From the NCBI GenBank assembly GCA_036874045.1, contig CM072341.1:7204501-7268500 (forward strand): a stretch of 64,000 bases of DNA, given 5' to 3'. Positions 19,888 to 57,507 of this stretch are shown piece by piece. This stretch comes from Cymodocea nodosa. Taxonomy: Eukaryota; Streptophyta; Magnoliopsida; Alismatales; Cymodoceaceae. The position numbers and the translations under genes were made by a program. Under the pieces are notes generated by a model, which made no database searches, was not told the DNA's origin, and saw only the letters and a program-made list of their open reading frames with translations. How positions within the stretch are numbered: the first letter of the stretch is position 1; the number at the start of each line of letters is the position of its first letter.

Positions 19888-21878
19888 TGTTTAGAATGAA
19901 AAATGCATAATATTAACGGTTAAATGATGGTTAATTGCATAATATTTAGCTTATCACGTGAGAATTAAGCTATTATGTTATAATTGCACTATTAGATGCT
20001 TTAATAAAAGACTCTGCATAATTCCAAGGAATTAATGTTAATTTAGTACATTTCTAAACTATCGGTAAATTGTAGGCTGTGAAATTTTTAAGTATCCGAA
20101 TTTTCTGTTATTTCGGAGAGTTATATTGCATGTACCAAATAGTTATGTTTTAAACGCTAAAAGAATATTTAGGTGAACAATAACAACTCGTTGAGTTACA
20201 AGTTTAAAGGTATAAAAAGATCACGTGAGAACTCGTTGAGTTAGCGAGTAAAAACCTTAAGTTATATATCTGAACTCGTTAAGTTAGATTTGTGCACGTG
20301 TTGAATTTAAATGTTTTATTATGTCACGTGAGATGCACATGTTTAACTCGTTAAGTTAGCATAACTATACACATTGAGTTACATGAATACACACTAAGGT
20401 AACGCGTTAGGTTAGCAGCTTCTTTCTTTATTGCACGTGTTTTATAGTTAAATCAACGAAGTAAGTCCGTTGAGTTATCTGTAACTCCATGGACCATTTA
20501 TTTTCTAATATGCCATTGTAGCGATTACAGAAACAGGACATTCGAAGGAAAACCACAATTGCACGTATCACGTAGGAAATCGCTCGTGGAAGGAAGAAGA
20601 AATCACCATCGTTGATATGAATGAAGGAAATCCAATCGATCATCGAAGCAGAAGCAGTTACTACTAAGAAATATAAAGGACAAGGAGAAAAGAATATACA
20701 AGGGGGTGGCCAGTGTGTGTGCAGAGGAGGAGGACCTTGCTAACTACAGGCAGCGACGAAAGTTCCACACTACCACCACCACCACCATAATCACCAACCA
20801 TCGGAGGTTTGTGAGGATACTTTCCTGATGTCGGGTCAATTCTGAGCCAAACACGGTGTCTGACAACCACTGTGAGGAGTGATTGCGTCGTAGGAAGGAA
20901 AGCCATTTTCACCAAGCACCGACTCATATCTCAAGAGATCGTAAAGCTTCTAGCCTTGGTTTCGGGTTGATGCTAGTATGCTGAAGAGGAGATCAACTTG
21001 CAATTTTGGACTTGCGATTCTATAGGGAGAGGAGATAGAATTGTAAGTAGTTAAATTTTCAGTAGTGTAATTGCGTCGCATGTAGTGACAGAAGTTTTTA
21101 CTATCAATAGAGATTACTTTTACATTTCACCTTTTGCCCATTTTTATGATCATATAAAAACAAAAAGACCAAAAACAACTTATCTATGTTTATAGTTAGT
21201 ATTGAAGTGTTGTATTGTTTGTTTTGTATCGTGATTATTGTTATCATTGTTAGTGTTTGGAATGTTTCATGTTTGTTTAATTTAGAAAATAGAAAATAGT
21301 TTTACAGTTTACTGAAATCGAATTGTTACTGATACTTAAAAATTTTAATGGTTACTGTTTGAAATATCTGAATGTTAGTGTTGCCAAATGATAAATTTAA
21401 TATTGACTAGCATTAAAGAGCTTAATTGATGTTATTTACAATCTGTGGAACCGCTCAATGGTTGACCGAATTCCTTTGTAAATAGCAGTATTAATTTGGA
21501 TAGATAACTTCGTTGAATTACTCCAATTTCACGAGGTTAGTTCATTGAGTTAGCTATAACTCAATGGAGTGCTTACTGAAGATATAAATTTCATTATTAA
21601 AAACAGAACAGTACACAATTCTTCCTCAATTCTCTATGTGATCAACCTGTACTTCGACACAAATACAATATACACTGTGCACTTGTAGTTAAAATACAAA
21701 TTGGAATTAATATCTAATTTGTGTGAAAGATGGTTTGTTGACTTCTAAAAGGAATTAATGATAAGCATAAAGATAAATTAACTAAGTTACAAATAAAAGT
21801 TAACAAGGCAATCAAGTTTTTTGGCGCTGTTGCCAGGGCACTAAATAAGTTCTCTAGTGTCGCCTAAAAATCCAACCA
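19888..21878 (+). repeat. 5' LTR of the plus-strand gypsy
   Basis: 1991 bp, TGTTTAGAATGAAAAATGCA to ATCCAACCA. A TATA-like AATATAAAGGAC lies at 20670-20681, so U3 is about 780 bp. Downstream comes a (CCA)n run near 20763 and the GC-richer leader. The part around 21650-21730 (AATATACACTGTGCACTTG) is shared with all gypsy LTRs of this lineage. The same boundary, CCAACCA, is set by comparison with the 3' LTR, where the sequence changes to copia LTR. Confidence 0.85.
20178..20440 (+). promoter_or_regulatory. Copia-like U3 block in the gypsy LTR
   Basis: Homologous in motif order and wording to 18676-18985: AACTCGTTGAGTTACAAG, GATCACGTGAGAACTCGTTG, GAACTCGTTAAGTTAG, GCACGTGTTGAATTTAA, TCACGTGAGATGCACATG and CACTAAGGTAACGCGTTAGG. 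The other gypsy copy (LTR 22996-25187) has a different block at this place, built of CGGATAGTTA and TAACTCACCGA units. The block lies upstream of the TATA box. Confidence 0.65.
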
Positions 21879-21885
21879 AGTTTTC

Positions 21886-21903
21886 TAGCGCCGTTGTTGG
21901 GGA
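21886..21903 (+). other. Primer binding site, tRNA-Asp type
   Basis: TAGCGCCGTTGTTGGGGA, seven bases after the 5' LTR, matches TGGCGCCGTTGCCGGGGA, the complement of the plant tRNA-Asp 3' end used by Athila-type gypsy elements. A second, weaker copy of this motif lies in the LTR end itself (21821-21838). Confidence 0.75.
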
Positions 21904-21986: not shown

Positions 21987-22995
21987 ATGGCATATGCTTA
22001 TGCTCAAAGATTTCTGAAACCTGTAGTTAGCATATGTGAATTCTGTAATTTTGAAGGTCATGACATTTCTAATTGTTTAAAACTGAGACGTCTGTAGATG
22101 GTTAGATCACATGAACAACAAATGAATTATCTTCAATATAATAGAGCTGAGAATGAGAATCCTATGGTTTACCCAACTAATGGTCAGTATAAAATGTGTA
22201 ATATGTTAAGAGACATAGAAGTTTGGGATAGGTATGACAGACTGGAGTGTAGTATAGAGCAAAACATGGACAAATTAGAACACTTTATGTGTCAGCAACA
22301 AGAAGTCAACCAATTAAACTATAAGGAAGCATATTTAGAACCTAAAATTGATATCATTTATGAAACTGAAAAAACCATAATGAAAATTGATCAAAAATTG
22401 AATGCAATGAGATTAGATGATCTAGAAAGAAAACTAAAAGCATTGGACGAATATACAATGAAATTACAAGTTATGCAACAGGACAACACAAATGAAAATT
22501 ATAATGTTATAGATTTGCATAATTTGCAAGATATACAAACAAAAGAAAATACCAATGCAATAGAATTTAAAGAATGTACTTTAAAACTAAAAACAATTGA
22601 AGATCATAATCACGAAAATGATATATAAGAACATCATGAGAGTAACGAAAATCTAGAAGATGTATATATAACACTAAGATTTGGAACTGATATACTACCA
22701 AGAATTCAAAAAGAAAGTAATAGAAAGATGGATAAGAACACAAATCAAAATGATAATGAAAATATAATATCTGAAAATATAGAAATCAATGACGAAAAGT
22801 CTGAATCAAAAAATGAGACTAAGAATGATCAAACAAATCAAATGAAAGAAAAAGAATCTTTTAAATCACAATCATTAGCACCCTATCCTGAAAGATTACA
22901 ACAAACATTTCCTGAAAAATAAGAAAAAATTAGAGAAATTTTTGAAAAAGTATAAGTTAATATTCCTTTGTTAGACTTATTGCAGACAATGCCAC
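21987..22995 (+). pseudogene. Gag 3' part: zinc knuckle and charged spacer (plus-strand gypsy, fossil)
   Basis: Begins about 90 bases after the primer site with MAYAYAQRFLKPVVS, followed directly by CEFCNFEGHDISNC, a CX2CX4HX4C zinc knuckle of the nucleocapsid type. Then comes a long charged, Asn/Glu-rich region with coiled-coil character and APYPERLQQTFPEK near the end, the usual approach to the protease in Athila-like elements. The capsid-type domain that normally precedes the zinc knuckle is absent here and lies instead near 50 kb. The minus-strand gypsy starts at 22996. Fossil, broken. Confidence 0.7.
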
Positions 22996-25187
22996 TGTTT
23001 GGGTTTTCCCAGCACTACACTAGAAAAACTTGGATTTGCTACTTCTGTTTTTACTTAGTTAATTTATCTTTATGCCTATTCTCTCTTTTAGAAGTAAACA
23101 AACAACCTTTAATACAATTTAGATATTAATTCCAATTTGTACTTTAACTGCAAGTGCACAATGTCTATTGTATCAATGTGCAAGTACAGGTCGATCCCAC
23201 AGGGAATTGCTGACGAACTTGAGAATTGTTTGCTTATTAAAAATCAAATTTATATATTCAATAAGCTCTCCGTTGAATTATAGCTAACTCAACGGACTAA
23301 GTTCGTTGAGTTATGGATAACTCAACGGACTAACCTTGTGGACTTAAGTTAACTCCACGAGTCTGCCTTTTCTTTTTAATACTGCTATTTACAAAGGAAT
23401 TCGGCCAACCATTGGGCGATTCCACAAATTGTAAATAACATCAATTAAGATCTTTAATGTTAGTTAACATTGGATTTATCATTGAGCAATACTAACATTC
23501 AGATAATTCAAACAGTAACCATTAAAATCTTTTAGTCTTTTAAACGAACCAATTTCAATAAACTGTAAAACTAAAATAAACATAAAACAATCACAACACT
23601 GACAAAGATAACATTTATCACGATACAACACAAACAATACAACACTCAAATACAACATACAAACATAGATAAATTGTTTTTGGTATTTTTGTTTTAATAT
23701 GAACATGGAAATGGGTGATAGGTGAAATGTAAAGTAATCTCACTTGATAGTAAATACTTTTGACACTACATGCAATGCGATTACACCACTGAAAATTAAA
23801 TCACTTACAATCCTGTCTCCTCCCCCTATAGAATCGCGAGTCCAGAATTACAAGATAATCTCCTCTTCAGCATACAGGCATCAACCCGAAGCCAAGGCTA
23901 AAAACTTTACAATCTCTTGAAATATGAGTCGGCGCTTGGTGAAAATAGCTTCCCTTCCCGTGACGCGATCACTCCTCACAGTGGTTGTTAGGCACTATGT
24001 TTAGTTCGGAATCGACTCGACATCAGGCAAGTATCCTCACAGACCTCCGATGGTTGGTGATTATGGTGGTGGTGATGGTGATGATGATGGTTGGTGTGGT
24101 ACTTCAGAGAATTGCGACGCCGATCCTCCTCTGCACACACTATCCGCCCATCAATCACACACTTCTCTTTTTTTCTTCTTTTCTTTTATATTTCTTTAGT
24201 AGTAACTACTTCTGCTTGAATGGTCGGTTGGATTTCCTTCATTCGTATTAACGGTGATGATTTCTTTCCTTGCGCAATATGTGCAAACGTGATTTTTCTC
24301 TTCCAACTGTCTATTCCTGCAACCGCTATAGTGGCATATTAGAAAATATATATAGTCCGTGGAGTTACAGATAACCCAACGGACTTTCTTCGTTGATTTA
24401 ACTATAAAACACGTGCATAAATTTAACTATTCGATGCTCAGGTGCATTTCAGATACTTATAAACTTAACTATCCGATGCTTAGATACATTTCGGATACTT
24501 ATACATAACTCACCGATATATAACTTAAGTAAATCTACCAGATCTCAACACGTGTCAGCAACAGTTTAATCATAAAATAACATTTCAGAGAGTTACAGGT
24601 CTAATTATCCGATGCTCAGATGCATTTCGGATAGTTACAGCTAACTCACCGATATATAACTTAAGTCAATTTCCTAGAACATGGCACGTGTCCTCAACTA
24701 TTTTATAAATAAAAAGAGATTTTGAAGAGTTACAAGGATAACTATCCGATGCCCAACTGCAATTTCGGATAGTTATAGATAACTCACCGAAAGTTCATTT
24801 AAGTCATTCATTATGGTTTCGACACGTGTACTTTAGGAAATAATAAAATATTCTCTCAAAACGTAACTGTTCGACAATTTAAACATAACTATCCGATACA
24901 TATTCGGTCTGTTAAACATAACTATTCGAATTTGTTCGGTATGTTAAACATAAATGTCCAAAATATCAGAAAATTCGGATACTTAAGAATTTCACAGCCT
25001 GCAACTTACCGATAGTTCATAAATGTATTAAATTAACATTAATTCCCCTAAATTAAGCAAATTCTTCAATTAAAACATATAATAGTGCAATTATAACATA
25101 ATGACTTAATTCTTATATGATAAGCTAAATATTATGCAATTAACCATCATTTAACTGTTAATAATATGCACTTTTTCATTCTAAACA
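22996..25187 (-). repeat. 3' LTR of the minus-strand gypsy
   Basis: 2192 bp; on the minus strand TGTTTAGAATGAAAAAGTGC to GGAAAACCCAAACA. The first 250 bp and the U5 part match the plus-strand gypsy LTR. The U3 middle (about 24400-24950) is instead built of inverted CGGATAGTTA / TAACTCACCGA units. A TATA-like AAATATAAAAG (minus) lies near 24190. Left flank of the insertion is GCCAC. Confidence 0.8.
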
Positions 25188-25200
25188 CTTCCCCCATACC
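25188..25200 (-). other. Polypurine tract, minus-strand gypsy
   Basis: Minus strand GGTATGGGGGAAG directly before the LTR start; primer for plus-strand DNA synthesis. It is preceded by GGGACTAGCAAAATTTA. Confidence 0.75.
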
Positions 25201-26754
25201 TAAATTTTGCTAGTCCCTTAGCAAACTAAGATCTAATTAATTGGTCTTTAAAAGTGCTAGAATTAATTCTTCCCCTTTTGTTTTTCTTCTGTTTAGCATA
25301 AAAATATATTCTGTATGTTTCAGTAATCAACTTACAAATATACTTAGAATATATGTAAATTACATACCAAGTATATCATCATCATATATGTGTTAATTAT
25401 ATTATCATTTGTTCTTCTTTTCATCATCTGCCATCCTGAATTTTCCAATAAGATTTCTAGAAGAAATTTCAACAACATACGAATCAGAGTACAATCGAAT
25501 TCAATCTGATTAAGATAAGTAGAATAAAGAATTGTATCTCTATTAAACAACTTCAAAAGTCAATTCCAGATTCATATTTCAGCAATTCTAGATAACAGAA
25601 AATATACTCGATTCATAAGATATCTGTAATTCACAAAACACTTGTATCTTTTCAGAACAGTATATGTATATATATATATATATTTTTTTTTCGTACTTTA
25701 AAAGTTAATTTGACAAGCTTGAATCATACAAGAGCTTTCTAATGTACCCATGTAACGAGCTTTCAATCAACAATCCCAGATCTGATCAGAATCTTAGGTT
25801 GCCAGATTTTAAGAGTCCTTTTTAGGTCAACAATCCTTACATACTTATCTGCTCAAGTACAAAAGGCTCGTGATCAAACAAGTCAATAACTCTCAAATTT
25901 TCCCTTTTTTTTGTTTTTTGTTTCCAATCAAAACTACAAACACAAAACAAAACATTAATCACATACTATATATGTATGTATTTCATTAATACAGATGTAG
26001 TAAAATGCCAATCTCATATAGTTCTGCTTCTATCAATTACTGAAAATATGAATCCATAACAATAAGCTCATACTTTTTCTATAGTTTAATAAGATCTACA
26101 CATAAATCATTTTACAAGTTCAATCAGTCAAATTAAATGTATCTTTAATCATATGTGTTTCATTTAATCTAGAATTCACATCTCAACTCTTTCAGGACTT
26201 CAGATAATTTACTGATTTTTTTCATTAAGCATTCTGATTTCATTTTAAAATCGTGAAACTGTTAAACTCATGAAATTCAGAAAAACATAAGATACTATAT
26301 CTAGATTTGCATAAATAAATTCAATAGCATCTTATATAGCCTTCTAAATATAACAGTCAAGCAGTTTATAAAAATTTTACAGTTTCATTTATCAGATAGT
26401 TACAGCAAGTTCATAAAATTTTCAATTTCCTCAAAACTTTGCAGTACCATTTTAATTTCTTTCATTAACAAACTTACATGGCTGTTACTTCAATTACCTC
26501 CCCCCATACCTATATTTTGCATTGTCCTCAATGTAAAAAGAGTTCACAATAAGTACAGTAATTGTAGCAGGCATGAATATAGTTTTGCTTGATTTAAAAT
26601 TGAGGACGAGTAATTAGTTACATACCTTGTTTCATTTGTATCTCCTTCTGCATATTCCGATTTTTTGATTCTGAAAAACTTTTCATTCATAGATAAAAAT
26701 AAAATATAAAACAAAATAACATTTAACAGATATTACTAAATCAATGTCTTGTGT
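25201..26754 (-). other. 3' untranslated region of the minus-strand gypsy with a second polypurine-like tract
   Basis: AT-rich sequence without genes. A second tract, GGTATGGGGGGAGGTAAT on the minus strand, lies at 26494-26510 and is preceded by TTGAGGACAATGCAAAA, the same wording that precedes the tract at the LTR. A (TA)n run lies near 25665-25680. The plus-strand copy shows the same pair (53208-53222 and 53955-53966). Confidence 0.55.
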
Positions 26755-26809
26755 GGAACCTAGGCTCTTATGCCTTTGGTGGCTCACAAGCAAGCCAGTT
26801 GGTTTCCCA
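26755..26809 (-). other. Conserved inverted-repeat (hairpin-capable) segment downstream of the F-box gene
   Basis: On the minus strand, GGGAAACC and GGTTCC flank TGGCT-N8-AGCCA. The equivalent in the plus-strand gypsy (52825-52878) has a longer perfect stem, GTGGCT-N8-AGCCAC. The segment is better conserved between the two copies than its AT-rich surroundings. It could be a 3'-end or RNA-structure element; function unknown. Confidence 0.5.
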
Positions 26810-26944
26810 GAACAGATACTAACAAACTGGATTGATATTTTGTTTGTTTTTTTTTCTTTTATAAAAATAATGAAAACTATAATTTTTTTTTTTTTTAACA
26901 ATAAATGTAGAATACACACAACATTAAACACACAAAATCACAGC

Positions 26945-28084
26945 TTAAGAACATGATTGAAAAGTAGAAACAAATGGAATAAATGTATCAGTCCAAGCAA
27001 ACTTTTTAGGCATAGTTCTTCTTGCTATTAATTCTGTTTTAATGTAGTTCTTGTTCCTTCTTAATTTGTAAACATGTAATATATTATAAATTCCAAATAC
27101 GAGTGTATTACCATTAATGATATGTAATGCAGAAAGGGATCCTTTTTGGTTCCAGGGTAATGTAGCAGTTTCTATTTCTACATCTATTTCAATATACTCC
27201 TCTTCCCACTTCCATTCATTTATGTCTTCCATAATCTATATTTAAAATTTCATCAATTCATCCCACCATCTTATTAGACATAAAGTAGGATCATCTTCTT
27301 CATTATACCACATTCCTATTTGAATTTCATTAAATTCTGCAGATGGTGGCTTAGCTATTTCACTTGGTACAGGTAAAATTTCTATATAATCTTCTTAACT
27401 GTCTATGCTCACTATGTATAAATCAGATCTATATGCTATTGATATCTCTGTGATTGAATAGATATATCCACCAAGTATGACATGTGTTTGGTTAATTAAT
27501 GATTTCTGTCCTAGATATATTATAATGTTTTCATTCCAAGATCTGTTTAGAAAATTATACACACTTAAGTGTAAATCTTCACCCCAATTTCCTGTAGGTT
27601 TCCAATAATATAATTTTTCAGGAATTGTAGAATTTGTATCAGAAAATATTAAAGCTGACCCACAATTTACAGTTGGTGCTTCAAATCTATTAGGTCTTCC
27701 TATATTCCATTCTTCTCCTATTATAGGATTTCTTATCAAAATATCAGGTAATAATAAACTTGCATACCTTAGTCTTGTCTTGTATATGATTAATCCTTCA
27801 TCTATCCCCATAATATGATTTATTCCTTCTAATGCATTGGGTGGAATTCCAGTAGTTTCTTCCATAGTCAGATATTCATGGGTATTTGAACTACGATTAA
27901 ATGACCTCCATATGAATCCTTCTCTAATCTTAGTCATTTTTGCAGCTTGTAGTCCCTGAAAATATTTTTCTTCAATATAGTCTTTAATTTCCTTTGATAC
28001 ACAACACAGCATGCATAGATCTTTAGCTGACAAGTTACTTAGTACTTCCCTTAGAGCATCCATTGGTAATTGCATCAATTCCAT
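26945..28084 (-). pseudogene. Captured F-box / F-box-associated gene in the minus-strand gypsy (fossil)
   Basis: Starts MELMQLPMDALREVLSNLSA followed by KDLCMLCCVSKEIKDYI, a clear F-box (family form LPxDLLxEILSRLPxKSLxRFRCVCKxW). F-box proteins bind SKP1 and choose substrates for SCF ubiquitin ligases. The remaining 330 or so residues have the feel of the F-box-associated beta-propeller: NPIIGEEW, NFLNRSWNENIIIYLG, GGYIYSITEISIAYR, and near the end NEWKWEEEYIEIDVE, then SLSALHIINGNTLVFGI. It lies between the capsid-type gag region and the polypurine tract. The same gene at the same place in the other copy (51586-52725) shows it moved with the element. GT...AG-like signals separate it from gag. 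Broken, few lesions. Confidence 0.75.
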
Positions 28085-28222
28085 TTGTCGATTCTGTAAA
28101 ACATAAACAAAAATTTAGCAGAGACAAAAATTAACATAACTACTGCACACCCTCGTGGAGTTAAGGCATAACTCAATAGACTAAGTTCGTTGAGTTAAAA
28201 ATTAACTATACGATATTATTAA

Positions 28223-29623
28223 CTAAAAATAAAAAACATATATACATACAGATAGTTGCTTTAGATATGCTGCTTCATTCAGCTGCCCTCCTAGAAGAGG
28301 CATCAATTTCATTAACCGTTCTATTGACAGGATTAGGTATAGCTTGTATTTAGTTGCCCTCCCAGAAGAGGCATCAATTTCATTAACCGTTCTATTGACA
28401 AGATTAGGTATAGCTTGTATTGGCAATCCTCCAGTAGGTCTAACTTCCATTGGTTCCTTTTGTCTAAGTGATATATTTCTATTCTGATTTTGAATTGCAA
28501 CATTTCCAAATATAAATTCTAGACGATTGTTTACTTGTTGGATTATCTTTTCTAATTTCTCTATTCTAGCTCCTTGTTCAATTAATACTTCATAACTTAT
28601 GTTTTTCTCATTTATATTTTCTCCTCCCTGGAAATTGTTGTCTCTCCAAGATAAATTCGGGTGATTTCTCTAATTAGGATGATAAGAATTTCCCAAGTTA
28701 TCTCTCTGGTTTCTAGCATAAATAATATCTAAGTCATTTATGTTTGCATTCTTTTCCGCTAGCTTTTGATTTAATGATAACTCTTCTATTTTCTTTGTTA
28801 ATTCATTTAATTTCACCTCAAGCATAGTATTGGAATCTATTTCATGCATTCCTCTTGGCAATATTCTTTTATCTACAATAGCTTCAGCCGAATTTTCCCA
28901 CTGTGTAGTTCTTTTTGCAAAGTTTTCTAAATATGCCCATGCTTCTTCACTACACAATTTTAAAAATCCATTTTGATAAGTAGATTCTAATAAGGATTTC
29001 GTTGAAACATCTATGCCTTCATAAATTATACCTATTAATTGTGCTTTACTCATTGAATGATGTGGACATTGAGTTAGTAAATCTTTAAATCTTTCAAAAT
29101 ATTTCCAAAATGATTCACCCTGTTTTTGGCTACACATTAATATTTCTTTCTTTTTTTTAATCATTTGATGTGTTAGATAATATTTTTCCAAAAAAATAGA
29201 GCAAAATTTAGTCCATGTAGAAATTGAATCAGGCGATAGAGTATATAACCATCTTTTAGCTGTGTCTTTTAAAGAAAAAAGGATATATCTAAGTTTAATA
29301 GCATCTATACTCATGTTCGGCATTTGCATCATTTGACAAAATTCGTTAAATTCTCTAAGGAAATAATAGGCATCCTCTCTTTCTAATTCATGAAAATGTG
29401 GTAATTGACTAATATAATTAGATTTCAGTTCAAACCTATCTCCCTCAAAGTTTGGCAATCGAATACATAAAGGTTCATTAATTAATTCAGGATACAGAAT
29501 CTCTCCTAATGGTTTTTCTACTGGAACAGCCATCTCTACGTTCTCCTTGAAAGAAAGGTTAGCTACACCCCAAAGAATTTCGTTAAAGTTCAGTTCAAAA
29601 TTTTTTTCAGTACTCCTCTGCAA
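28223..29623 (-). pseudogene. Gag capsid-type domain, downstream of integrase (minus-strand gypsy, fossil)
   Basis: Contains the retrotransposon gag core of Athila-like elements: RLPNFEGDRFELKSNYISQL, LEREDAYYFLREFNEFCQMM, LRYILFSLKDTAKRWLYTL, SISTWTKFCSIFLEKYY, GESFWKYFERFKDLLTQCPH, IIYEGIDVSTKSLLES, CSEEAWAYLENFAKRTTQWE. A coiled stretch (LNELTKKIEELSLNQKLAEK) follows. In known Athila-type elements this lies upstream of the zinc knuckle and protease. Here it is about 4 kb downstream of integrase and next to the F-box gene, in both copies. Part of a fossil element. Confidence 0.8.
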
Positions 29624-29639
29624 TGAAAATTCCTGGGTA

Positions 29640-30240
29640 GGTGTTCTTACTAATCGTTTAGTGCTTAGAGAACGAGTCTATGTGCTCATAAATAAATAGC
29701 AGAAGATTAATTACATACTAGTCTGAAGCTTTCCATTCTATAAATATTTGTTGTCGGATGAAGTTGAATCAGTTGCTTCTCCTTCCAGTTCCTCCAACAT
29801 CTTCTCTTTTCTTTTAAAAGTGTTGGTAACTCGTAAATAACATTCTGTTTTATATATATACTACGCATCCATAAAGTGAATAAATCTCGTTGCAAGAACG
29901 TGTCTTGCAACGTGCATCGTGGTTCCTATTTATATGGGTACGTGTACCACTACTAATTTCAAATTTTGGTAACCGCTAAACCGACGAAGCTTCGTTCGTG
30001 GTTAAAAGAATAACCGTTCTGCTTAATCCACGAACTAATCTCGTTGAGTTACATAAAACTCAACAAAACATAGTCGGTTACTGTTGCTAACTCTACGGAC
30101 TAACTTCGTTGAGTTACAGATAACTTAACGGAGTGACTTTATATTATATTACTGACCTCGTGGAGTTATAGTTAACTAAATAGACTAAATTCGTTGAGTT
30201 AACACTTAGCAACTTCTAAGTTTTACTCTCGTAAGTTACT
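29640..30240 (-). promoter_or_regulatory. Internal leader with TATA-like box before gag (minus-strand gypsy)
   Basis: On the minus strand, several TCCGTTGAGTTA/TAACTCAACG inverted pairs (about 30020-30200) are followed by ATATAAATAGG near 29930, a TATATATATAAAAC box at 29848-29861, and a leader running to a GTATGTAATT donor-like site near 29722. A TTTTCATTGCAG acceptor-like site lies just before the gag core. The plus copy keeps the box (ATTATAAATATAG, 49829-49840) and the donor-like site. This suggests gag and F-box have their own transcript; not shown directly. Confidence 0.45.
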
Positions 30241-30662
30241 TTCTGTTTTTTTTTCTTTGTTTATTCTGCTAACTTAAATAAAGTTAAATTTATGTCATTA
30301 ATGCATCATTTTGATTAAAATTCATTTAAATCTAAATCTTATATAAAGATTTAACTTGTAGGTCATTTTATGTTATGCATAATTTACATTTAACCTTATA
30401 ACATGCAGAAATTTTTAAGCAGTTATCTTGTCATTCAGCAAATTGTAAATCTGTTACATATTCATTCATAAATTTTCACAATATCATAATATTCAATAAT
30501 TTCCATTCATTTCACATTCAAAACACATATGAAAATTGCATCTGAAAAATTTACATTCATTAATATGAATCAATTACAATACAAGCACATCATACAATTT
30601 CATACAATTTTACGTAAGTATACGAACAATACAATTTAATCTCTATGCCTAAGTTCATCTAC

Positions 30663-32840
30663 TTACTTCTGGAGTTTTTCTAATTGAAGTTTTAATTGAT
30701 TAATCCTTTCTACAGCTCCTGTAATTCCTCCAAAAGGTACTGCTAGTTCTGCAGCTACAAAATTTTTGTATTCTTTCACTGAAATGGTTCTTGATTTGAT
30801 CCTTTTTGATGTCCATTTAGTGAAATCGATACAGTCCACCATCAGTAGTGGAATCAAATCTCCATAAAATAATTTCTTCTTCACTGTTTTCAGCTTGGAG
30901 ACAAAAACTGCAGACCAATTTATTTGGATCTTATTTACAACTGCATATGTGGCCCACTTGACAAATTGACTTAATTCTATGTCATGGCCCTATCATTGAT
31001 AGACATTCTTAATCAGAATGTTAGCTACCATGTGTGCTTTACCATTTAAATGCTTCAATCTGTTTAATAATGGCACACCAGGATTGATAGCTAAACAATC
31101 CTTAATTTGCTGTTCAGTCCATTCAACTACAGTTGTATCTTCCAAAATTTTTGTTCCTTCATTCTTTAAACCAAATATGTTGTGGAGAAGCTCTGGTGTT
31201 ATCTGTACATCAGCTTCCTCTACGTTTGAAATTAATCCTCCTTCTCTTTCTCTCAAATTTGCATAGAAACAGGACACTAAATTTTCATATACTGTATGCC
31301 CTCTTTCTTGAGATATAAATTGTAGTAGACATTGGAATTCAAATAACTCTTTGATTTCTTGCATTCCATCCAAATTTACTGGTCTACTGTAAATAATGTA
31401 GTAACCCCTTATTTCTTGATATTTGGTATAAGCTTCCTAACTACAAAAATGTACTTCATTCAAAATTGTTATTTCAGTCGGGTCAGGAAGATGACTTTGT
31501 TGCTCCTGAGGGGTTTGTTCTTGATCTTCCTCTAGCATAGGCTGCATTTGGACATTCTCTTCAGATTCCTGGATTTTTGCTTTTGCTTCTGTCTGTGGTG
31601 GTGAGCCAGCAGAACTCTCCACTCCGTCTTGAATTCTCTCCATAAATTACTGAAGAGTTTCTTGTTCTTCAATGGAATCTATGAAATTATTTTTGTCCAA
31701 ATGGCTTCTTTCAGCCTCTTCATTTTCTTCACTTTCTTGCTCCTCCTGACTACCAATCTGTTCTGTTACTGTTCTTTCTGATTCTGTAACAGATTGGGAT
31801 GAAGTCACGGGCAATTCAGTTTCTACCCTAATTTCTATTTCTTCTTGTATAGGCTGCAGACTAATTTCAGCCTGATTTTCTTCTTTTCTTTGCTCCTCCT
31901 GCTCCTCCTTAGAATCAGATAGCAAGTTAATAAAAATCTGCTCCACAGGCCTTGTAAAAATTGATACTTCAGATTTAATTTCCTCATATTCAGACACTTT
32001 TTCTTTTCCTTTCTTTTTTCTGATTAGTTGTGCCTGTTCTTCCTCTTCATCTTTTGAAATTAAATCTATAAAAGTAGGTTCTGCAAGCTTTCGAGCCATA
32101 AGTACTGACTCTTCCTGTTTAATTCTTTTTATAACTACTGGTCTAGAAGGACCAGCTTCAGCTTCTTTTGCAGCAGATTTGGCAGCAGTTTTGGCAGTAG
32201 TTTCGTGATGCTGTTCCAATTTGATTTTATATTGGGCTTTCAACTTTTCTACAACTCTCTTTTTGTAAAGTGCATCAAACACTAGGTGTGCTTTGGCCAC
32301 TGCCAAATCTTCTGATTCTCCTTGGTTCTTCCCAACTTGAACCAGTTCTGCAAATTCTCTTTTCTCTTCTTTAGTCGAAGGTCCCATCATTTCTACTCAT
32401 GCCAACGGCTTAAATGGTGGAACTGAAGGTCCTAACTGCTGTTCCTCAGGAACAGGTCTTTCAGCAATCGTCTCCTCTTATCCTTCAGTTGCCTCTCGTT
32501 GTTCCTACTGCCATATTTCCCAGCTTCCTCGTCCAGCAATACGTTTCTTAAACCAAAATCTGGCTTTACGTTGAATTAGCTCTAGGGCTACTTCATTGTT
32601 TGGCCAGATTTTTCTTTCTTTACTTAATGCAATTTCAGTTGCCACTCTAATTCGTGTCTCCATTATCTGCGGTATTTGTATACCACAATCTACTAATATT
32701 TTTCTTAATCTAAAAAGTTCAGATTCTACCTTTTGTAACTCTTTTTCTCTCGTTGTATTTCTGATCTTCTGCCTCGTGTGTCATTCTTCAAATTCCTTCA
32801 GAAACTGTGCGGTGTCCACTGCCTTTTCCTAGAATTCAGG
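30663..32840 (-). pseudogene. Acidic ORF and plant-transposon-protein domain (minus-strand gypsy, fossil)
   Basis: First (31437-32840) a very acidic, Glu/Gln/Lys-rich region without globular look, including VVIKRIKQEESVLMARKLAE and FIDLISKDEEEEQAQLIRKK, probably a disordered or coiled protein. Then (30663-31400) comes a domain of the 'putative plant transposon protein' type: IKELFEFQCLLQFISQERGH, VSCFYANLRER, DVQITPELLHNIFGLKNEG, AINPGVPLLNRLKHLNGKAH, and a tail with LLMVDCIDFTKWTSKRIKSR. This domain occurs in many plant gypsy elements; its role is unknown. Its position after integrase is where Athila-type elements carry an extra or env-like ORF. Broken. Confidence 0.6.
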
Positions 32841-46600: not shown

Positions 46601-46966
46601 AAATTACAATTGATTGAATTAGAAGAATTTAGGAATAAAGCTTATTCAAAAACTGTAAGAGAAAAAGAGAAAATGAAGTTTTGACATGATAAGAAAATTA
46701 TTCCAAAAACCTTTAAAATAGGACAAGAAGTATATCTTTATATGACTGGACTCCATAATCATCTAGGAAAATTAAGATCTAGATGGGCAGGACCTTACAT
46801 AGTTCAAAATATTTATTCCTATGAAGTTATTGAGATTGAAAATCTTAAAAATGAGAATATATTTAAAGTAAATGGACAAAGACTTAGACCTATTTTAAAG
46901 ATACCAAAAAGTTCTTTTGGAATTGTAGAAGAAGTAAGAGTAGAGGACTACTCAAGCTTTACTTAG
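43643..46966 (+). pseudogene. Pol region of the plus-strand gypsy (fossil)
   Basis: Continues the protease sequence of 38283-38330 after the copia insertion. Visible in order: end of protease (YPIDIVILDSQ), linker with acidic spacer (43821-44087), RT (about 44490-44900: [50 protein letters not shown]), RNase H (about 45220-45480: [32 protein letters not shown]), integrase (45990-46370: [53 protein letters not shown]) and C-terminal GPYIV region (46742-46966). Clearly homologous throughout to 33391-37040 on the other strand and more decayed. Confidence 0.85.
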
Positions 46967-47029: not shown

Positions 47030-49110
47030 CCATCGGTCCAACTGGAACCAAGAATAAATGTTGCTACGAAAATTGCTGTAAGCAAAAAGAGAAAAATCAG
47101 GCCAAACAATGAAGTTGCCCTAGAATTAATCCAACGTAAGTCCCAGCTCTAGTTCAAAAGACAAATAGGTAGACGAGCTCAATGGGCGATCTAGGAGTAA
47201 GAAAGGAAAGAAAATGAAGAAGAGTCAACTGAAGGACAAGAGGAGCCGACTACTGAAAGACCTGTTCCTGAGGAATAATTGCCAAGACCTTCAAATCCAC
47301 TTCCTAAACCATTAGAAAGGGTGGTAGTTATGGGGTCTTCAAACGAAGAAGAATTAAGAGAATTTGAAGAACTGGTTCAAGTTGGGAAAAACCAAGGAGA
47401 ATCAAAAGATTTGGCAGTGGCTAAAGCACACCTAGTGTTTGATGCACTTTACAAAAAGAGGGTTGCAGAAAAGTTGAAAGCCCAATATAAAATCAAAGTG
47501 GAGCAACATCAAGAAGCTATTGCCAGACCTGCTGAAAAAGGAGATGAAGTTGGTCCTTCGAGACCAATAATTACTAAAAGAGTTAAACAGGAAGAGTCAG
47601 TACCTATGGCTCAAAGGCGTGTAGAGCCTATTTTTGTGGATTTAATTTCAGATGAGGACGAAGAAGACCAGACACAATTAATTAGAAAAAGGAAAGGAAA
47701 GGAAAGGAGATAGTGTCTGAATATTAAGAGGAGATTAAATTTGAAAGACAAATGTCAGTAGGCCCTGTAGAGTCAAATTTTGTAAACCTGCTATCTGATT
47801 CTGAAGAGGAGTAGGAGCAGCAGCAGTAAGAGCAAAGAAAAGAAGAAAAATAGGCTAAAACTAGTTTACAGCTTGTACAAATAGAAGAAATAGCAATTAG
47901 GGCAGAAACTGATTTGCTCGGAACTCCATCCCAATTTGCCATAGAATCAGAAAGAACAATGACAATGTATATTGGTAGTCAGGAGGAAGAAGAAGAAGAA
48001 AAAAATGAACAAAAAGCTGAACAAGTATATATGGAAAGAGAGGACTCAACAGATTCCACTAAAGAGCAAGAAAATCTTCAGCAATTTATGGAAAGAATTC
48101 AAGACAGAGTGGAGAGTTCTGCCGGCTCACCACCATCGACAAAAGCAGAAGCAAAAATGCTAGAATCTGTGGAACATTTTCAGCAAGTACAAGTTCAGCA
48201 TTTGGGAGAGGAAGTTCAAGAACAAACCCCTCAGGAGCAACAAATGCATATTCCTGATCCTTCAAAAGTGACAGTTTTAAATGAAGTACATTTTCGGAGT
48301 CAAGAAGCTTATGAAAAATACCAAGAGATTAGAGGTTATACTATCATTTACAGTAGACCAGTAAATTGGGACGGAATGCAAGAAATCAAATAATTATTTG
48401 AATTCTAAGGTCTACTGAAGTTTATTTCTCAAGAAAGAGGGCATGTAGTATATGAGAATCTAGTGCCCTGCTTTTATGCAAACTTAAGGGAAGATGAAGG
48501 AGGATTAATTTCCAACGTGGAGGAAGCTGATGTACAAATAACACCAGAGCTTCTCCACAACATTTTAGGATTGAAAAATGAAGGGAAAGAAATTTTGGAA
48601 AGCACAACTACTGTTGAGTGGACAGAAGAGGAAATCAAGGATTGTTTAGCTATCAATCCTAGTGTGTCGTTATTAAATAGACTAAAGCAGTTAAATGGTA
48701 CAACACACATGATAGCAAACATTCTAATTAAGAATGCCTACCAATGACAAGGCCATGATATAGAACTGAGTCAATTTGTAAAGTGGGCCACATATGCAGT
48801 TGTAAATAAAATTCAAATAAATTGGTCTGTAGTTTTTATCTCCAAGCTGAGAACAGTAAAGAAGAAATTATTTTATGGACATCTGATTCCACTGCTGATG
48901 GTGGATTGTATCGATTTCACTAAATGGGCATCTAAAAGGATCAGATCAAGAACCATTTTAGTGAAAGAGTACAAAAATTATGTAGTTGTAGAGATTGTTG
49001 AACCTTCTAGAGGAATTATAGGAGCTGTAGAAAGGATTAACCAATTAGAGTAACAAGTAAAAAAACTCCAGAAGGAAGTAGATGAACTTAGGAGAAGAGA
49101 CTAAATTGTA
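47030..49110 (+). pseudogene. Acidic ORF and plant-transposon-protein domain (plus-strand gypsy, fossil)
   Basis: Same module as 30663-32840. Acidic region 47279-48300 (RVKQEESVPMAQRRVEPIFV, DLISDEDEEDQTQLIRKRK); shared boundary text EVHFRSQEAYEKYQEIRGY, YTIIYSRPVNWDGMQEIK (to 48393); PTP domain 48420-48747 (FISQERGH, CFYANLREDEGGLISNVEEA, DVQITPELLHNILGLKNEG, AINPSVSLLNRLKQLNGTTH) and a tail to about 49100 (TVKKKLFYGHLIPLLMVDCI). Broken. Confidence 0.6.
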
Positions 49111-49539: not shown

Positions 49540-50060
49540 AGAGAACTAAGTGTTAACTCAACGAAGTAAGTCCGTTGAGTTAACCTGAACTCCACAAGGC
49601 TAGTAATATAATATAAGGTCAATTCGTTGAGTTATCTGTAACTCAACAAGGTTAGTTCGTGGATTAAGCTAAACAATTATTCTTTTAGGCACGAACGACA
49701 CTTCGTGGGTTTAGCGGCTACTGAAATTTGAAATTAGAAGTGGCACACGTACCCAGAAAAATAGGAACCACACTATACGTCACTAGACACGTTCTTGCAA
49801 CAAGATTTATTTGCTTTATGGACGTGCATTATAAATATAGAACAGAATGTTATTTACTAGTTACCAGCACTTGTGAGAGAAAAGAAAATTTGTTGGGGAA
49901 TTGGTAGGAGAAGCAGCTGATTCAACTTCATCCGTCAACAATTATTTACTGAATAGAAAGCTTCGGACTGGTATGTAATTAATCTTCTGCTTTTTTACTA
50001 TATGTTAAGAGTTTATGAGCACATGGACTCATTCTCCTAGCACTAAATGATTAGTAAGAA
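49540..50060 (+). promoter_or_regulatory. Internal leader with TATA-like box before gag (plus-strand gypsy)
   Basis: GAGTTA/TAACTC inverted pairs at 49555-49660, then CACGAACGACACTTCGTGGG, a TATA-like ATTATAAATATAG (49829-49840) and a GGTATGTAATTAATCTTCTG donor-like site at about 49970-49990. Wording and spacing match 29640-30240 on the other strand; conservation between two diverged copies supports a function. Confidence 0.45.
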
Positions 50061-51365
50061 CACCTACCTAGGAGTATTCAACACAGAAGCATATTGAAAC
50101 ATTTTCTGAATTGGACTTTAATGAAATCCTTAGGGGTGTAGCAAACCTTTCTTTAAAAGAGAACGAAGATATTGCTGCTCTAGTAGAAAAACCATTAGGG
50201 AAAATTCTATATCCTGAATTAGTTGATGAACCTTCATGTATTCGATTGCCAAACTTTGAGGGAGATAGGTTTGAACTGAAATCTAATTATATTAGTCAAT
50301 TGCCATATTTTCATGGATTAGAAAGAGAGGATGTCTATTATTTCCTTAGAGAATTTAACGAAGTTTGTCAAATGATAAAAATGCCAAATATGAGTATAGA
50401 TGCTATTAAACTTAGATATATCCCTTTTGCTTTAAAAGACACAGCTAAGAGATGGTTATATATCTATCGCCTGATTCAATTTCTACATGGATTGAATTTT
50501 GCTCTGTTTTTCTGGAAAAATATTATCCAACACATCAAACGATTAAAAAGAAAAAAGAAATATTAATGTGTAGCTAAAAATAGGGAGAATCATTCTAGAA
50601 ATATTTTGAAAGATTTAAAGATTTATTGACTCAATGTCCACATCATGTAATGAGTAAAGCACAATTAATAGGTGTAATTTATGAAGGCATAGATATTTCA
50701 ACAAAATCTTTATTAGAATCTACTTGTCAGAATGGATTTTTAAAATTGTGTAGTGAAGAAGCATGAGCATACTTAGAAAATTTTGCAAAAAGAACTACAC
50801 AGTAGGAGAACTCAGTTGAAGCTATTGCAGATAAAAGAATATTGCCAAGGGGAATGCATGAAATAGATTCAAGCACTATGCTTGAAGTGAAATTAACCGA
50901 ATTAACAAAGAAAATAGAAGAGTTATCATTAAATCAAAAACTAGCAGAAAAGAATGCAAACATTAACGATCTAGATATTATTTATGCTAGAAACTAGAAA
51001 GATAACTTTGGAAATTCATATAACCCTAATTGGAGAAATCACTCGAATTTATCTTAGAGAAACAACAATTTCCATGGAGGAGAAAATATTAATGATAAGA
51101 ATATAAGTTATGAAGCATTAATTGAACAAGGATCTAGAATAGAGAAATTAGAAAAGATAATTTAGCAATTAAACAATTGTCTAGATTTTATATTTGGAAA
51201 TGCTGCAATTCAAAATCAAAATATAAATAGAAATATACCCCCTAGACAAAAAGAAGCAATAGAAGTTAGACCTACTAGAGGATTGCCAATGCAAGCAGTA
51301 CCTAACCCTATTAACAGAATTGTTAATGAAATTGATACTTCCTCTAGGAGGGTAGCTGAATGAAG
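50060..51365 (+). pseudogene. Gag capsid-type domain, downstream of integrase (plus-strand gypsy, fossil)
   Basis: RLPNFEGDRFELKSNYISQL, LEREDVYYFLREFNEVCQMI, LRYIPFALKDTAKRWLY and further blocks to the coiled stretch LTELTKKIEELSLNQK and RPTRGLPMQAVPNPINRIV near 51330. Homologous along its length to 28223-29623 on the other strand. Again downstream of the integrase and acidic/PTP modules and upstream of the F-box gene. More decayed than the minus copy. Confidence 0.75.
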
Positions 51366-51585: not shown

Positions 51586-52725
51586 ATGGAATTCTTAAAA
51601 TTACCACTAGACGCACAAAAGGAAGTACTAAGTAACTTGTCAGCTAAAGATCTATGCAGATTATGTTGTGTATTAAAGGATATTAAAGATTGTGTTAGAG
51701 AAAAATATTTTCATGGACTACAAGCTGCAAAAATGACTAAGATTAGAGATGGATTTTTATGAAAGTCATTTAATCGTAGTTCAATCAGCTATGAATATCT
51801 GAATATAGATGAAACTACTAGAATTCCACCCAATGCATTAGAAGGAATAGATCATATTATGGGGATGGATGAAGGATTAATTATATACAGAACAAAACCA
51901 AGGTATGCAATTATGTTACGTGATATTTTGATTAGAAATCCTCTCACCAGAGAAGAATGAAATATAGGAAGGCTTAATAGATATGAAGTACCAACTAAAA
52001 ATTGTGGGTCAGCTTTAATATTTTTTGATAAAAATTCTATCATTCCTGAAAAATTATATTATTGGAGACCTACTGGAAATTGGGATGAAAATTTATGCTT
52101 AAGTGTGCATAATTTTCTGAATAGATCTTGGACTGAAAACACTATGATATATCTAGGACAGAAATCCTTAATTAACAGCATACATGTCATACTTGATGGA
52201 TATATATATCTAGTCACAGATATATCAGTTGCATTTAGATCTGATTTATACATAGTAAGCATAGATAGTTATGATAATGACTATATAGAAATTTTGCCTA
52301 TACCAAGTGATATAGTTAAACCACCATCTACAGAATATGATAAAATTCAATTAGGAATGTGGTATAATAAATATGATGATCCTACTCTATGTCTGTTAAG
52401 ATGGTGGGATGAATTGAAGAAATTTCAAATATGGATTATAAAAGACCTAAATGAATGGAAGTGGGAAGAGGAATATATTGAAATAGATGTAGAAATAGAA
52501 ACAGCCACACTATCTTGGAATAGACGAGAATCTCTTTCTGCATTTCATTTCATTAATGGAAATACACTTATATTTAGTATTGATAACATACTGCAAGTTT
52601 ACAAATTAAAAAGGAAAATAGACTGCACTGAAACAGAATTGATAGCAAAAAGGATTATGCCAAAAAAGTTTGCTTGGACTAACATGTTTATTCCATTTGT
52701 TACTACTTTTCAGTCATTTTCTTAA
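51586..52725 (+). pseudogene. Captured F-box / F-box-associated gene in the plus-strand gypsy (fossil)
   Basis: Same gene as 26945-28084. N-terminal F-box (MEFLKLPLDAQKEVLSNLSA, KDLCRLCCVLKDIKD) and the propeller-like C-terminal part, well kept from 52105: NFLNRSWTENTMIYLGQKSL, DLYIVSIDSYDNDYIEILPI, WWDELKKFQIWIIKDLNEWK, SLSAFHFINGNTLIFSIDNI. The FQIWIIKDLNEWKWEEEYIE segment resembles the F-box-associated domain form LxVWVMKDYGxxxSWTKL. An AG acceptor-like TTATACAG lies just before the start codon, at the same place as in the minus copy. Broken. Confidence 0.72.
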
Positions 52726-53966: not shown

Positions 53967-56900
53967 TGTTTAGAATGAAAAAGTGCATAATATTAACGGT
54001 TAAATGATGGTTAATTGCATAATATTTAGCTTATCATGTGAGAATTAAGCCATTATGTTATAATTGCACTACTAGATGCTTTAATAAAAGAATCTGCATA
54101 ATTCCAGGGAATTAATGTTAATTTAGTACATTTCTGAACTATTGGTAAATTGTAGGCTGTGAAATTTTTAAGTATCCGAATTTTCTGTTATTTCGGAGAG
54201 TTATATTGCATGTACTGGATAGTTATGTTTTAAAGGCTAAAAGAATATTTAGGTGAATAGTAACAACTCGTTGAGTTACAGGTTTAAAGGTATAAAAAGA
54301 TCACGTGAGAACTTGTTGAGTTAGCGAGTAAAAACCTTAAGTTATATATCTGAACTCGTTAAGTTAGATTTGTGCACGTGTTGAATTTAAATGTTTTATT
54401 ATGTCACGTGAGATGCACATGCTTAACTCGTTAAGTTAGCATAACTATACGTGTTGAGTTACATGAATACACACTAAGGTAACACGTTAGGTTAGCAACT
54501 TATTTCTTTATTGCACGTGTTTTATAGTTAAATCAATGAAGTAAATCCGTTGAGTTATCTGTAACTCTATGGACCATTTATTTGTTAAGACCTTAAGGCT
54601 TACTAGAGGGGGGGTGAATGGTAAAAATTCGTTTCTTAACCTTTTAGAAGTAGTTTAATGTAAAGTGATAGCAAACATACAATAAAAGAAATCACACAGA
54701 GATTTTTAGGTGGTTCACCACTAACGGCTAGTCCACCCCCAAGGGATACTTGGGCTTCACTAAACTCTTGCAAACTTACAATCACTTGCTTTAAGGTTTA
54801 AGCAAGAACCAACTAACCATTCACTTGAGCTTCTTTGTCGAAGCTTCAATCAATCCTTTCTCTGAAGTTTTAATCCGTGTACTTTAGTAAACACTATCTT
54901 GTGAACAGTAGAGTTGAAAGCGTGATGAGCTTCTGAAATTTGGTCTGTAAGTGTTGAAGATAATTTGATCTCTAAAGCTTTTCTTCTGTTGAACTTGGTG
55001 TAAGTATATGTATGGGCAAAGCGCTGCTTTTATCCGTTGTCTGTATCTTGTATATATATACCTGACATATGTAACGATCATATTCTCTTCCAATAGATGT
55101 ATTGTACTGTACTTGATTAGACTCCAGTCCCAAATATGGTAAGTTACCGTTCAGAAAATTATTTCAAGATGTCTTACTGATTTTCCTAACCTTTCGGATA
55201 GTTAGCTGTGTAACTCTCTGAAGAATATCTGTAACTCACTGAAAGATCACTTAAACCTTTCTGCCAGGTAGGATTCCAGAATATTTACTGCGAGCTGACA
55301 TTCAATCGGATGATTATAACTGTAACTTACCGAACAGTTATATAACTATCGGATAATTGGCTACAGTAACCCTTTGTTAACTTTTCGATTGCTTCAATTC
55401 AGCATGTGCATAAAAGGCTGACTTAAGTTTCGAATGGTTATCCTTGTAACTCACCGAAACACTTCAGGATTTCAGATAGTTATCTTTCTAACTCTCCGAA
55501 AACATATTTGAGCTTCTTTTTGGAATTCTACACGTGGGAAATTCAATGACTTAAGTTTCGAATGGTTATCCCTATAACTCACCGAAACTCTCTTTGAGAT
55601 TTTGGATAGTTATCTACCTCTTTGATTTTTCCTTTAAGCTTTTGACTACCGACTTCTCTATTCTGTACGTGCATTATTGAATGACTTAACTTTCAGATAG
55701 TTATACCTGTAACTCTCCGAAAAACTCGAATAGTTATCTAACTCTCCGAAAAGAAAACTCGGATAGTTATCTAACTCTCTGACAAGTCCTTTAAACTTCC
55801 ATTCTGTATTTCTGCACGTGATTTATTGAATGACTTAACTTTCGGATAGTTATACCTGTAACTTTCTGAAAAAGTCCTTTAAGCTTCTAGATAGTTAACT
55901 CTTTAGCTATCCGATCATTCAATCCTCCTTATCCTGAGAAATACAATTCTTAACTGTTCGATTTTTTACATCAGCATATTCTAAGATTTACCGCAACCTA
56001 TTTGCTACTTCAATTTGTTTGTCTTTTGATCTTTTTGCTATACAGACTAATCCTGATAAATACAATTCAAAACCTTACATTGATTTTTGCATTATCAAAA
56101 TCTAGAGGTCCTTTCATTATTTTCTAATATGCCACTGTAGCGGTTTTAGAAATAGGACATTCAAAGGAAAACCATGATTGCACGTATCACATAGGAAATC
56201 GCTAGTGGAAGGAAGTAGAAATCACTATCGTTGATATGAACGAAGGAAATCCAACCGATCATCGAAGTAGAAGCAGTTACTACTAAGAAATATAAAGGAC
56301 AAGGAGAAAAGAATATATAGGGGGGTGGCCAGTGTGTGTGTAGAGGAGGAGGACCGCGCTAACTGCAAGCAGCGATGGAAGTTCCACACTACCACCACCA
56401 CCACCACCACCACCATAATCACCAACCATCGGAGGTTTGTGAGGATACTTTCCTGATGTCGGGTCGATTTCGAGCCAAACACGGTGCCTGCCAACCATTG
56501 TGAGGAGTGATCACATCGCGGGAAGGGAAGCCATTTTCACCAAGCACCGACTCATATCTCAAGAGATCGTAAAACTTCTAGCCTTGGTTTCGGGTTGATG
56601 CTAGTATGCTGAAGAGGAGATCAACTTGCAATTCTAGACTCACGATTCTATAGGGAGAGGAGATAGAATTGTAAGTGGTTAAATTTTCAGTGGTGTAATT
56701 GCGTCACATGTAGTGACGGAAGTTTTTACTGTCAATAGAGACTACTTTTATATTTCACCTTTCGCCCATTTTCATGATCATATAAAAATAAAAATACCAA
56801 AAACAACTTATCTATGTTTATAGTTAGTATTGAAGTGTTGTATTGTTTGTTTTGTATCGTGATTATTGTTATCATTGTCAGTGTTTGGAATGTTTCATGT

Positions 56901-57507
56901 TTGTTTAATTTAGAAAATAGTAAATAGTTTTACAATTTACTGAAATTGAATTGTTCTTGATACTTAAAGATTTTAATGGTTACTGTTTAAAATATCTGAA
57001 TGTTAGTGTTGCCAAATGATAAATTTAATATTGACTAGCATTAAAGAGCTTAATTGATGTTATTTACAATCTGTGGAACCGCTCAATGGTTGATCGAATT
57101 CCTTTGTAAATAGTAGTATTAATCTGGATAGATAACTTCGTTGAGTTACTCCAATTTCACGAGGTTAGTTCGTTGACTTAGCTATAACTCAACAGAGTGC
57201 TTACTAAAGATATAAATTTCATTATTAAAAACAGAACAGTACACAATTCTTCCTCAATTCTCTGTGGGATCGACCTGTACTTGCACACAAATACAATATA
57301 CACTGTGCACTTATAGTTAAAATACAAATTGAAATTAATATCTAATTTGTGTGAAAGATGGTTTGTTGACTTCTAAAAAGGAATTAATGATAAGCATAAA
57401 GATAAATTAACTACGTTACAAACAGAAGTTAACAAGGCAATCAGGTTTTCTAGCACCGTTGCCGGGGAGCTAAATAAGTTTTCTGGTGCCGCCTAAAAAT
57501 CCAACCA
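53967..57507 (+). repeat. 3' LTR of the plus-strand gypsy, split by a solo LTR
   Basis: TGTTTAGAATGAAAAAGTGC to ATCCAACCA. Without the nested solo LTR (54583-56116 and one TSD copy) it is 2002 bp, matching the 1991-bp 5' LTR. The copia-like U3 block is present at about 54265-54535; TATA-like AATATAAAGGAC lies at about 56289-56300; a (CCA)n run near 56391 is longer than in the 5' LTR. The flank after it is TGTAA. Confidence 0.85.
54583..56116 (-). mobile_element. Solo LTR of a second copia (Sirevirus-type) family
   Basis: 1534 bp with TG/CA ends and the perfect 5-bp duplication TTATT (54578-54582, 56117-56121). On the minus strand it starts TGAAAGGACCTCTAGATTTT and ends TTCACCCCCCCTCTAGTAAG plus CCTTAAGGTCTTAACA, the end form of Sirevirus-type LTRs. 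U3 carries many CGGATAGTTA / TAACTCTCCGA inverted pairs, like the U3 of the minus-strand gypsy. No internal region is present. The empty site can be read directly in the 5' LTR at about 20500. Confidence 0.88.

Follow-up and report, generated by a model that had tools for sequence, protein, structure and literature searches.

A Ty3/gypsy lineage of Cymodocea nodosa with its capsid gene downstream of integrase and a putatively divided gag

Introduction

Gypsy retrotransposons are ordered GAG-PROT-RT-RH-INT (gag, protease, reverse transcriptase (RT), RNase H (RH), integrase (IN)), and elements with an unexpected order or doubled domains were always removed in the procedure described in PMC6317226. 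Retroelement classification and models assume Gag to be the first gene, with capsid (CA) and nucleocapsid (NC) joined in a single protein. A 64,000-nucleotide stretch of Cymodocea nodosa DNA (assembly GCA_036874045.1, contig CM072341.1, positions 7,204,501 to 7,268,500; hereafter the window) raises the question of whether a gypsy lineage can keep its capsid gene behind integrase. The window is a nest of long terminal repeat (LTR) retrotransposons with plant relatives. It contains two Ty3/gypsy elements on opposite strands, copy B and, nested within it, copy A. An earlier reading of the letters, here called the original prediction, had proposed that in both copies the zinc-knuckle part of gag precedes protease and the capsid core follows integrase. 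We found this order in both copies, and we favour, with a probability of roughly 0.6, an Athila-like lineage with a divided gag, in which a second gag would have been gained behind integrase, the 5' gag trimmed, and CA made separately.

Results

Domain order of the two copies

The order in copies A and B was LTR, primer site, zinc knuckle and gag tail, protease, RT-RNase H, integrase, acidic and Transposase_32-like open reading frame (ORF), capsid gag, F-box ORF and LTR (Table 1). It was confirmed by Pfam and profile matches; in the Pfam scan that had been proposed as a check, Retrotrans_gag was matched downstream of integrase in both copies. The downstream ORF of copy A is a genuine CA (E 9.3e-19). 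In copy B, one piece scored just above the cut-off (E 3e-5), and the piece at 50072-50563 had no Pfam match. This was the sole CA found per copy, as no confident CA match was obtained upstream of protease in either copy among the 143 pieces of at least 28 amino acids scanned. Thus CA stands after IN in both copies, which departs from the Athila order GAG-PROT-RT-RH-INT, and neither copy has the integrase upstream of RT that marks the Gmr1 group.

The capsid ORF begins with an ATG common to both copies (29689 in A, 50015 in B). No zinc knuckle was found in the downstream gag of either copy. The distance from the CPHH to the NPxW motif was 129 residues in both, compared with a median of 160 (range 94-178, n=55) in relatives. 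The predicted structure takes in both CA lobes, and a sequence search of the PDB gave weak matches only (best E 0.0069). A clear heptad pattern was observed in the downstream tail, where 5 of 300 shuffles were as good. A 71-bp tandem duplication (28277-28421) lies at the end of this gag in copy A.

At the other end of the element, a primer-site-like sequence begins 8 bp beyond the LTR in both copies (38126 in A, 21886 in B); it was scored against an 18-mer that we take to be the tRNA-Asp-type primer site, and shuffles gave a chance expectation of 0.3 per 30 kb at ≤6 mismatches. A similar sequence also occurs within the 3' end of the copy B LTRs (21822 and 57451, 2-3/18 mismatches), as if copied into the LTR. 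Past the primer site, the knuckle ORF opens with its first ATG after 83 bases in copy B and after 94 bases in copy A. The CCHC knuckle is complete in copy B (CEFCNFEGHDISNC); copy A is without the final cysteine. The proposed distance of some 100 bases or less between the primer site and the start of the knuckle part therefore held, but in both copies a stop codon separates the knuckle ORF from the gag tail. The stop codon is followed directly by an ATG, which could reflect reinitiation, readthrough or a common old lesion. The spacing from the knuckle to the TLRSG motif was 610 nt (∼203 codons) in copy A and 636 nt (∼212 codons) in copy B, close to the top of the range in relatives (96-208 codons, median 170, n=53).

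The element boundaries were likewise as proposed, at both ends of copy B and at one clean junction of copy A. Copy B runs from TGTTTAG at 19888 to CCAACCA at 57507, and its flanks TGTAG/TGTAA are a 5-bp target duplication with 4/5 bases identical. Copy A has a single clean junction because most of its 5' LTR was lost, with only the last 152 bp left; its 3' LTR is whole, and the high-coordinate side of its target duplication was lost. TG...CA LTR ends, a primer site, a target duplication and the order RT, RNase H, integrase in pol identify the elements as Ty3/gypsy.

Overlap of the two gag parts

A gag profile was built from 29 ordinary gag-protease relatives. The knuckle-less downstream piece covered profile positions 41-472, and the upstream piece, from the knuckle onward, covered 298-736. 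A gag stretch corresponding to ∼386-472 is therefore present twice, upstream and downstream. The genome had originally been regarded as permuted; a clean permutation of one gag was ruled out by this overlap, since both ends retain overlapping gag parts. The overlap suggests instead the gain of a second gag and the trimming of the first. As judged from the profile coverage, gag was probably doubled, either by duplication or through recombination that brought in another Athila-type gag, after which the CA half of the 5' copy was lost. A second primer site before the downstream gag, as the fusion of an entire element would predict, was not found at ≤6 mismatches. Long LTR similarity was not found there either; only short modules of 20-68 bases with 74-100% identity were observed.

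Relatives and lineage placement

A capsid-only query retrieved 6 proteins and a 7-row alignment query 1181, 120 of them listed; the set of relatives comprised 125 proteins. CA came first in 103/103 relatives with both CA and protease among these 125 from the matches listed, in agreement with the original statement that Athila-type and other gypsy elements encode capsid, zinc knuckle and protease together in an upstream polyprotein; the count is biased, because only single chains with both domains were counted and the CA of a split element would show up without protease. Among viral contigs, an RT scan and a gag scan yielded no relative of any order. In the literature searched, mostly outside subscription journals, no earlier report of a gag behind pol or integrase was found.

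The profile of the 29 relatives matched CA at E 6e-80 and protease at E 9e-67, as expected for the Athila-type plant gag-protease family. The sense ORF in the 3' part matched Transposase_32 (PF20167) at E 1e-3 and 1e-4, under the curated cut-off. Additional RNase H (Tat) or a chromodomain was not detected by Pfam in the pieces scanned, which cover part of the frames of decayed copies. The label Athila-like is a presumptive one, drawn from the gag and protease relatives, the gag tail motifs, which we assume to be Athila-typical, and the 3' ORF rather than from an RT tree.

The source of the second gag was approached with CA and protease trees of 56 rows, namely the window and 55 relatives, an identity-thinned subset of the 95 that have both domains. 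The CA of the window grouped with P0001, P0007, P0009, P0010, P0012 and P0061 (support 99/97). These six proteins also stand together in the protease FastTree, and in the best tree the window protease fell outside their group. Such a conflict would be expected if the downstream gag came by recombination from a different Athila-type lineage, rather than by duplication of the element's own gag; some of the six proteins are likewise knuckle-less. However, placing the window protease in the six-protein group was not rejected (approximately unbiased test, p 0.215), nor was excluding the window CA from it (p 0.087). The longest branch of the 157-column protease tree is that of the window row, which has an odd composition. 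Duplication and recombination could thus not be told apart with these trees. We rate the recombinant origin, a narrower form of the divided-gag reading, at somewhat less than an even chance.

Divergence and selection between the copies

A single local rearrangement or a misassembly might also produce two nested copies on opposite strands within 64 kb, one of them lacking most of its 5' LTR. The divergence between the copies argues against this. Kimura two-parameter (K2P) distances between copy B's own LTRs were 0.042 and 0.069 in two parts, whereas that between the LTRs of A and B was 0.22 over 1151 bases of the main part, and synonymous divergence (dS) between A and B was 0.19-0.48 across RT-RH, IN, the Transposase_32-like (PTP) ORF and CA. 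Since the divergence between A and B is far above that of B's own LTRs, A was not copied from B in place. Together with the target duplication at the ends of B and the selection on CA between the copies, these values largely refute a local artefact, which we consider very improbable. They support transmission of the arrangement as a mobile unit, as originally proposed.

The lineages of A and B split well before B inserted, and the arrangement is common to both, so that the capsid has been under selection in its new place. Its nonsynonymous divergence (dN) between A and B was 0.067 and its dS 0.264, giving a dN/dS of 0.25 (bootstrap 0.16-0.40, Fisher p 1e-9, 326 codons), or 0.12 once an assumed 0.04 of post-insertion decay was subtracted. 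In gag of ordinary Athila families, ratios of 0.19-0.38 are given (PMC2410132). The other regions gave 0.28 (RT-RH), 0.26 (IN), 0.18 (PTP ORF), 0.22 (knuckle ORF, 36 codons), 0.45 (upstream gag tail), 0.49 (F-box ORF) and 0.64 (acidic ORF). For a protease stretch of 59 codons, the point estimate was 0.52.

The constraint on pol also bears on a different reading, in which the lineage is a non-autonomous passenger that lost its 5' CA and obtains capsid from ordinary Athila-type helpers. The downstream CA would then be an accessory protein, such as a regulator or a protein that inhibits competing elements in trans. The p22 fragment of Ty1 CA is such a trans-acting inhibitor. Ty1 p22 was among the structural matches of the modelled capsid, though as one of many capsids, and a knuckle-less capsid might co-assemble with ordinary Gag. 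Whole non-autonomous Athila families are described, some with gag under purifying selection (PMC2410132). However, RT-RH and IN, like CA, showed constraint between A and B, whereas a pure passenger would not require constraint on pol, and no gypsy element with an ordinary gag was noticed in the window, which is only 64 kb. We regard the passenger reading as unlikely.

Proposed origin and expression of the separate capsid

Under the divided-gag reading, a second, knuckle-less gag copy extending from the start codon to about the TLRSG region would have been placed after integrase and the 3' Transposase_32-like ORF, having arisen by duplication or been acquired from a related element through template-switch recombination. 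Loss of the capsid half of the 5' gag would have followed, leaving knuckle-tail-protease-RT-RNaseH-integrase. Both recombination among distant Athila families and the existence of gag-only Athila elements are on record (PMC2410132). CA would be a protein of its own, most likely from a shorter transcript made from an internal promoter or by splicing from the LTR, and NC-Pol would be made from full-length RNA. An NC-Pol without CA would need to enter particles via RNA or CA contacts; it might be drawn in by its bound RNA, and perhaps also by the tail region retained in both proteins.

Separate expression of CA, as originally proposed, is plausible, and the capsid ORF's own start codon would fit a transcript of its own. 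For an internal promoter, gene23 of maize Grande offers a precedent, though it is described as an antisense gene (PMC7264820). Over 827 aligned bases, the spacer before the capsid ORF was 81% identical between the copies, a value no higher than that of the LTRs (80%). A sigma-70 promoter scan, with a model not designed for plants, showed no excess. Short LTR-like modules were found before the capsid ORF in both copies, and before the F-box and Transposase_32-like ORFs in copy A. Modules of the type GTTGAGTTA/TAACTCAAC, often in inverted pairs, occurred at 30 sites in the window compared with 0.78 expected from first-order resampling. They were located in the LTRs of both gypsy copies, before the capsid and F-box ORFs, before the Transposase_32-like ORF of copy A, and also in neighbouring sequence (7267 and 18734-19098), and they could be shared regulatory hairpins.

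Several observations weigh against a divided gag with a separately made capsid. The sample is two copies, both decayed, in one window. The knuckle ORF matched the gag profile weakly when taken alone (E 0.003 in copy B, 0.3 in copy A), and a Foldseek search with the capsid gave no structural match at E ≤0.001 (best 0.011). The ratio of the downstream gag tail (0.59, 80 codons) was not significantly below 1. The heptad pattern of the upstream tail was not beyond shuffles (43/300 and 90/300 as good), so that co-assembly via a common coil is weakly supported. TATA-like stretches are present upstream of CA in each copy, and they are not the same in A and B. Moreover, among the 88 of 125 relatives with motifs spanning the CA-NPGW region, 61 had a strict CCHC knuckle, 7 a loose one and 20 none; knuckle-less gags are therefore not rare in this family. 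The loss of the downstream knuckle need not follow from the split, since these 20 are of normal order; a strict complementary loss, in which the knuckle was dropped downstream because it was kept upstream, is weakened by the same count. The most far-reaching version of the proposal is an autonomous lineage whose capsid gene lies behind integrase and whose capsid and nucleocapsid-Pol are separate products of different transcripts; it is offered as a tentative idea that we find rather doubtful.

Other features of the nest

An F-box ORF stands behind the capsid ORF in both copies, with an F-box match in copy A only. A search of the protein collection gave 84 candidates, none of them a relative at E 1e-3; the ORF may have been captured from the host. 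In both copies a second sequence resembling a polypurine tract, ATTGAGGACAATG...TATGGGGGGAGG, precedes the 3' LTR by ∼0.8-1.3 kb, at 26508 (-) and 53210 (+). The ∼1.5-kb insertion in the 3' LTR of copy B carries CCGA/TAACTC repeats, as seen by eye, and might represent a solo LTR from a different family. A copia element splits parts of copy B. Immediately after copy B come copia gag and integrase ORFs (57728-61336), including a 727-amino acid gag ORF; copy B may have inserted into the LTR end of that element. An Rfam search at gathering scores over 19800-57700 gave no match.

Table 1. Positions of the features of copies A and B and of sequences inserted in them (coordinates of the window)
Feature	Position	Strand	Remarks
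Copy B, Ty3/gypsy	19888-57507	+	
5' LTR, copy B	19888-21878	+	TGTTTAG start, CCAACCA end, flank TGTAG
Primer-site-like sequence, copy B	21886-21903	+	tRNA-Asp type, 3/18 mismatches
Zinc-knuckle ORF, copy B	21987-22094	+	CEFCNFEGHDISNC; profile 298-331, E 0.003
Stop codon, then ATG, copy B	22095-22100	+	
Gag tail, copy B	22098-22919	+	interrupted; 22629-22919 matches profile 484-551, E 2.8e-5
Protease remnant, RT, RNase H, integrase, copy B	43643-46966	+	several frames
Acidic and Transposase_32-like (PTP) ORFs, copy B	47279-49053	+	PF20167 E 1.1e-4, under Pfam cut-off
Downstream capsid gag and tail, copy B	50015-51290	+	decayed, end approximate
Counterpart of F-box ORF, copy B	51586-52725	+	FBA_1 E 0.019, under cut-off
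3' LTR, copy B	53967-57507	+	contains ∼1.5 kb insertion at ∼54584-56117
Copy A, Ty3/gypsy	22996-38285	-	nested within copy B
5' LTR remnant, copy A	38134-38285	-	last 152 bp
Primer-site-like sequence, copy A	38109-38126	-	3/18 mismatches
Zinc-knuckle ORF, copy A	37907-38014	-	last Cys lost; profile 294-327, E 0.3, not significant alone
Stop codon, then ATG, copy A	37906-37901	-	
Gag tail, copy A	37027-37821	-	profile 386-563, E 7e-5
Protease, copy A	36564-37043	-	profile 580-736, E 9e-67; Pfam under cut-off only
RT, RNase H, integrase, copy A	33394-36630	-	several frames
Acidic and Transposase_32-like (PTP) ORFs, copy A	30666-32396	-	PF20167 E 0.0013, under Pfam cut-off
Downstream capsid gag, copy A	28226-29689	-	start region, CA (profile 41-307), tail (365-472), no knuckle; in-frame stops
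F-box ORF, copy A	26945-28084	-	interrupted; PF00646 E 7e-9
3' LTR, copy A	22996-25187	-	
Copia element inserted in copy B	38331-43642	+	GATAC duplication on both sides
GTTGAGTTA/TAACTCAAC modules, examples	20190-20469, 23285-23318, 28189, 30043-30193, 33042-33108, 49554-49639, 51491		

Discussion

Frameshifting and readthrough are ways to free capsid output from Pol output. If capsid and NC-Pol are indeed made from different transcripts, a capsid gene behind integrase would be a further way, beside frameshifting, readthrough and splicing, to uncouple capsid from Pol. A lineage with CA cut from NC and placed behind integrase would test the packaging of Pol and RNA without a Gag-Pol precursor, and also how plant elements achieve excess capsid. 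The architecture would be an unusual one for such elements, if more copies confirm it.

Among known systems, copies A and B resemble the Athila lineage (Athila, Diaspora, Bagy-2) in their long LTRs and in a tRNA-Asp-type primer site close behind the LTR. The primer site of Diaspora is given as 5 bp past the LTR, compared with 8 bp here, and the CX2CX4HX4C knuckle described in gag (PMC1142308) is a further shared feature. Sunflower Athila 14 is reported to have a sense 3' ORF related to Transposase_32 (PMC11728184), to which the 3' ORF of copies A and B, with matches under the cut-off, may correspond. Diaspora is described with a single gag-pol ORF of 1892 codons (PMC1142308), unlike the copies of the window. 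In contrast to the Athila lineage, these have CA in a separate ORF behind integrase and the 3' ORF, followed by the F-box ORF.

An altered domain order is shared with the Gmr1 group of Ty3/gypsy, in which gag is not known to have moved, and a capsid output uncoupled from Pol would be shared with the copia element BARE, which has its gag in the usual place. The Gmr1 group differs in that integrase is reported upstream of RT (PMC8220671), and BARE in that a spliced Gag-only RNA is described from a single-ORF element (PMC3735527). In foamy viruses, structural and enzymatic proteins are likewise described as separate, with Pol packaged via RNA (PMC7828637); their Pol is a separate protein from a spliced RNA, whereas in copies A and B NC would stay with Pol and CA alone would be separate. 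Stand-alone gag ORFs are described in gag-only Athila elements, where they are under selection (PMC2410132), and in the TR-GAG elements of sunflower (PMC11728184). Those are separate elements that lack pol, whereas in copies A and B the capsid gag lies in the 3' part of an element that bears pol.

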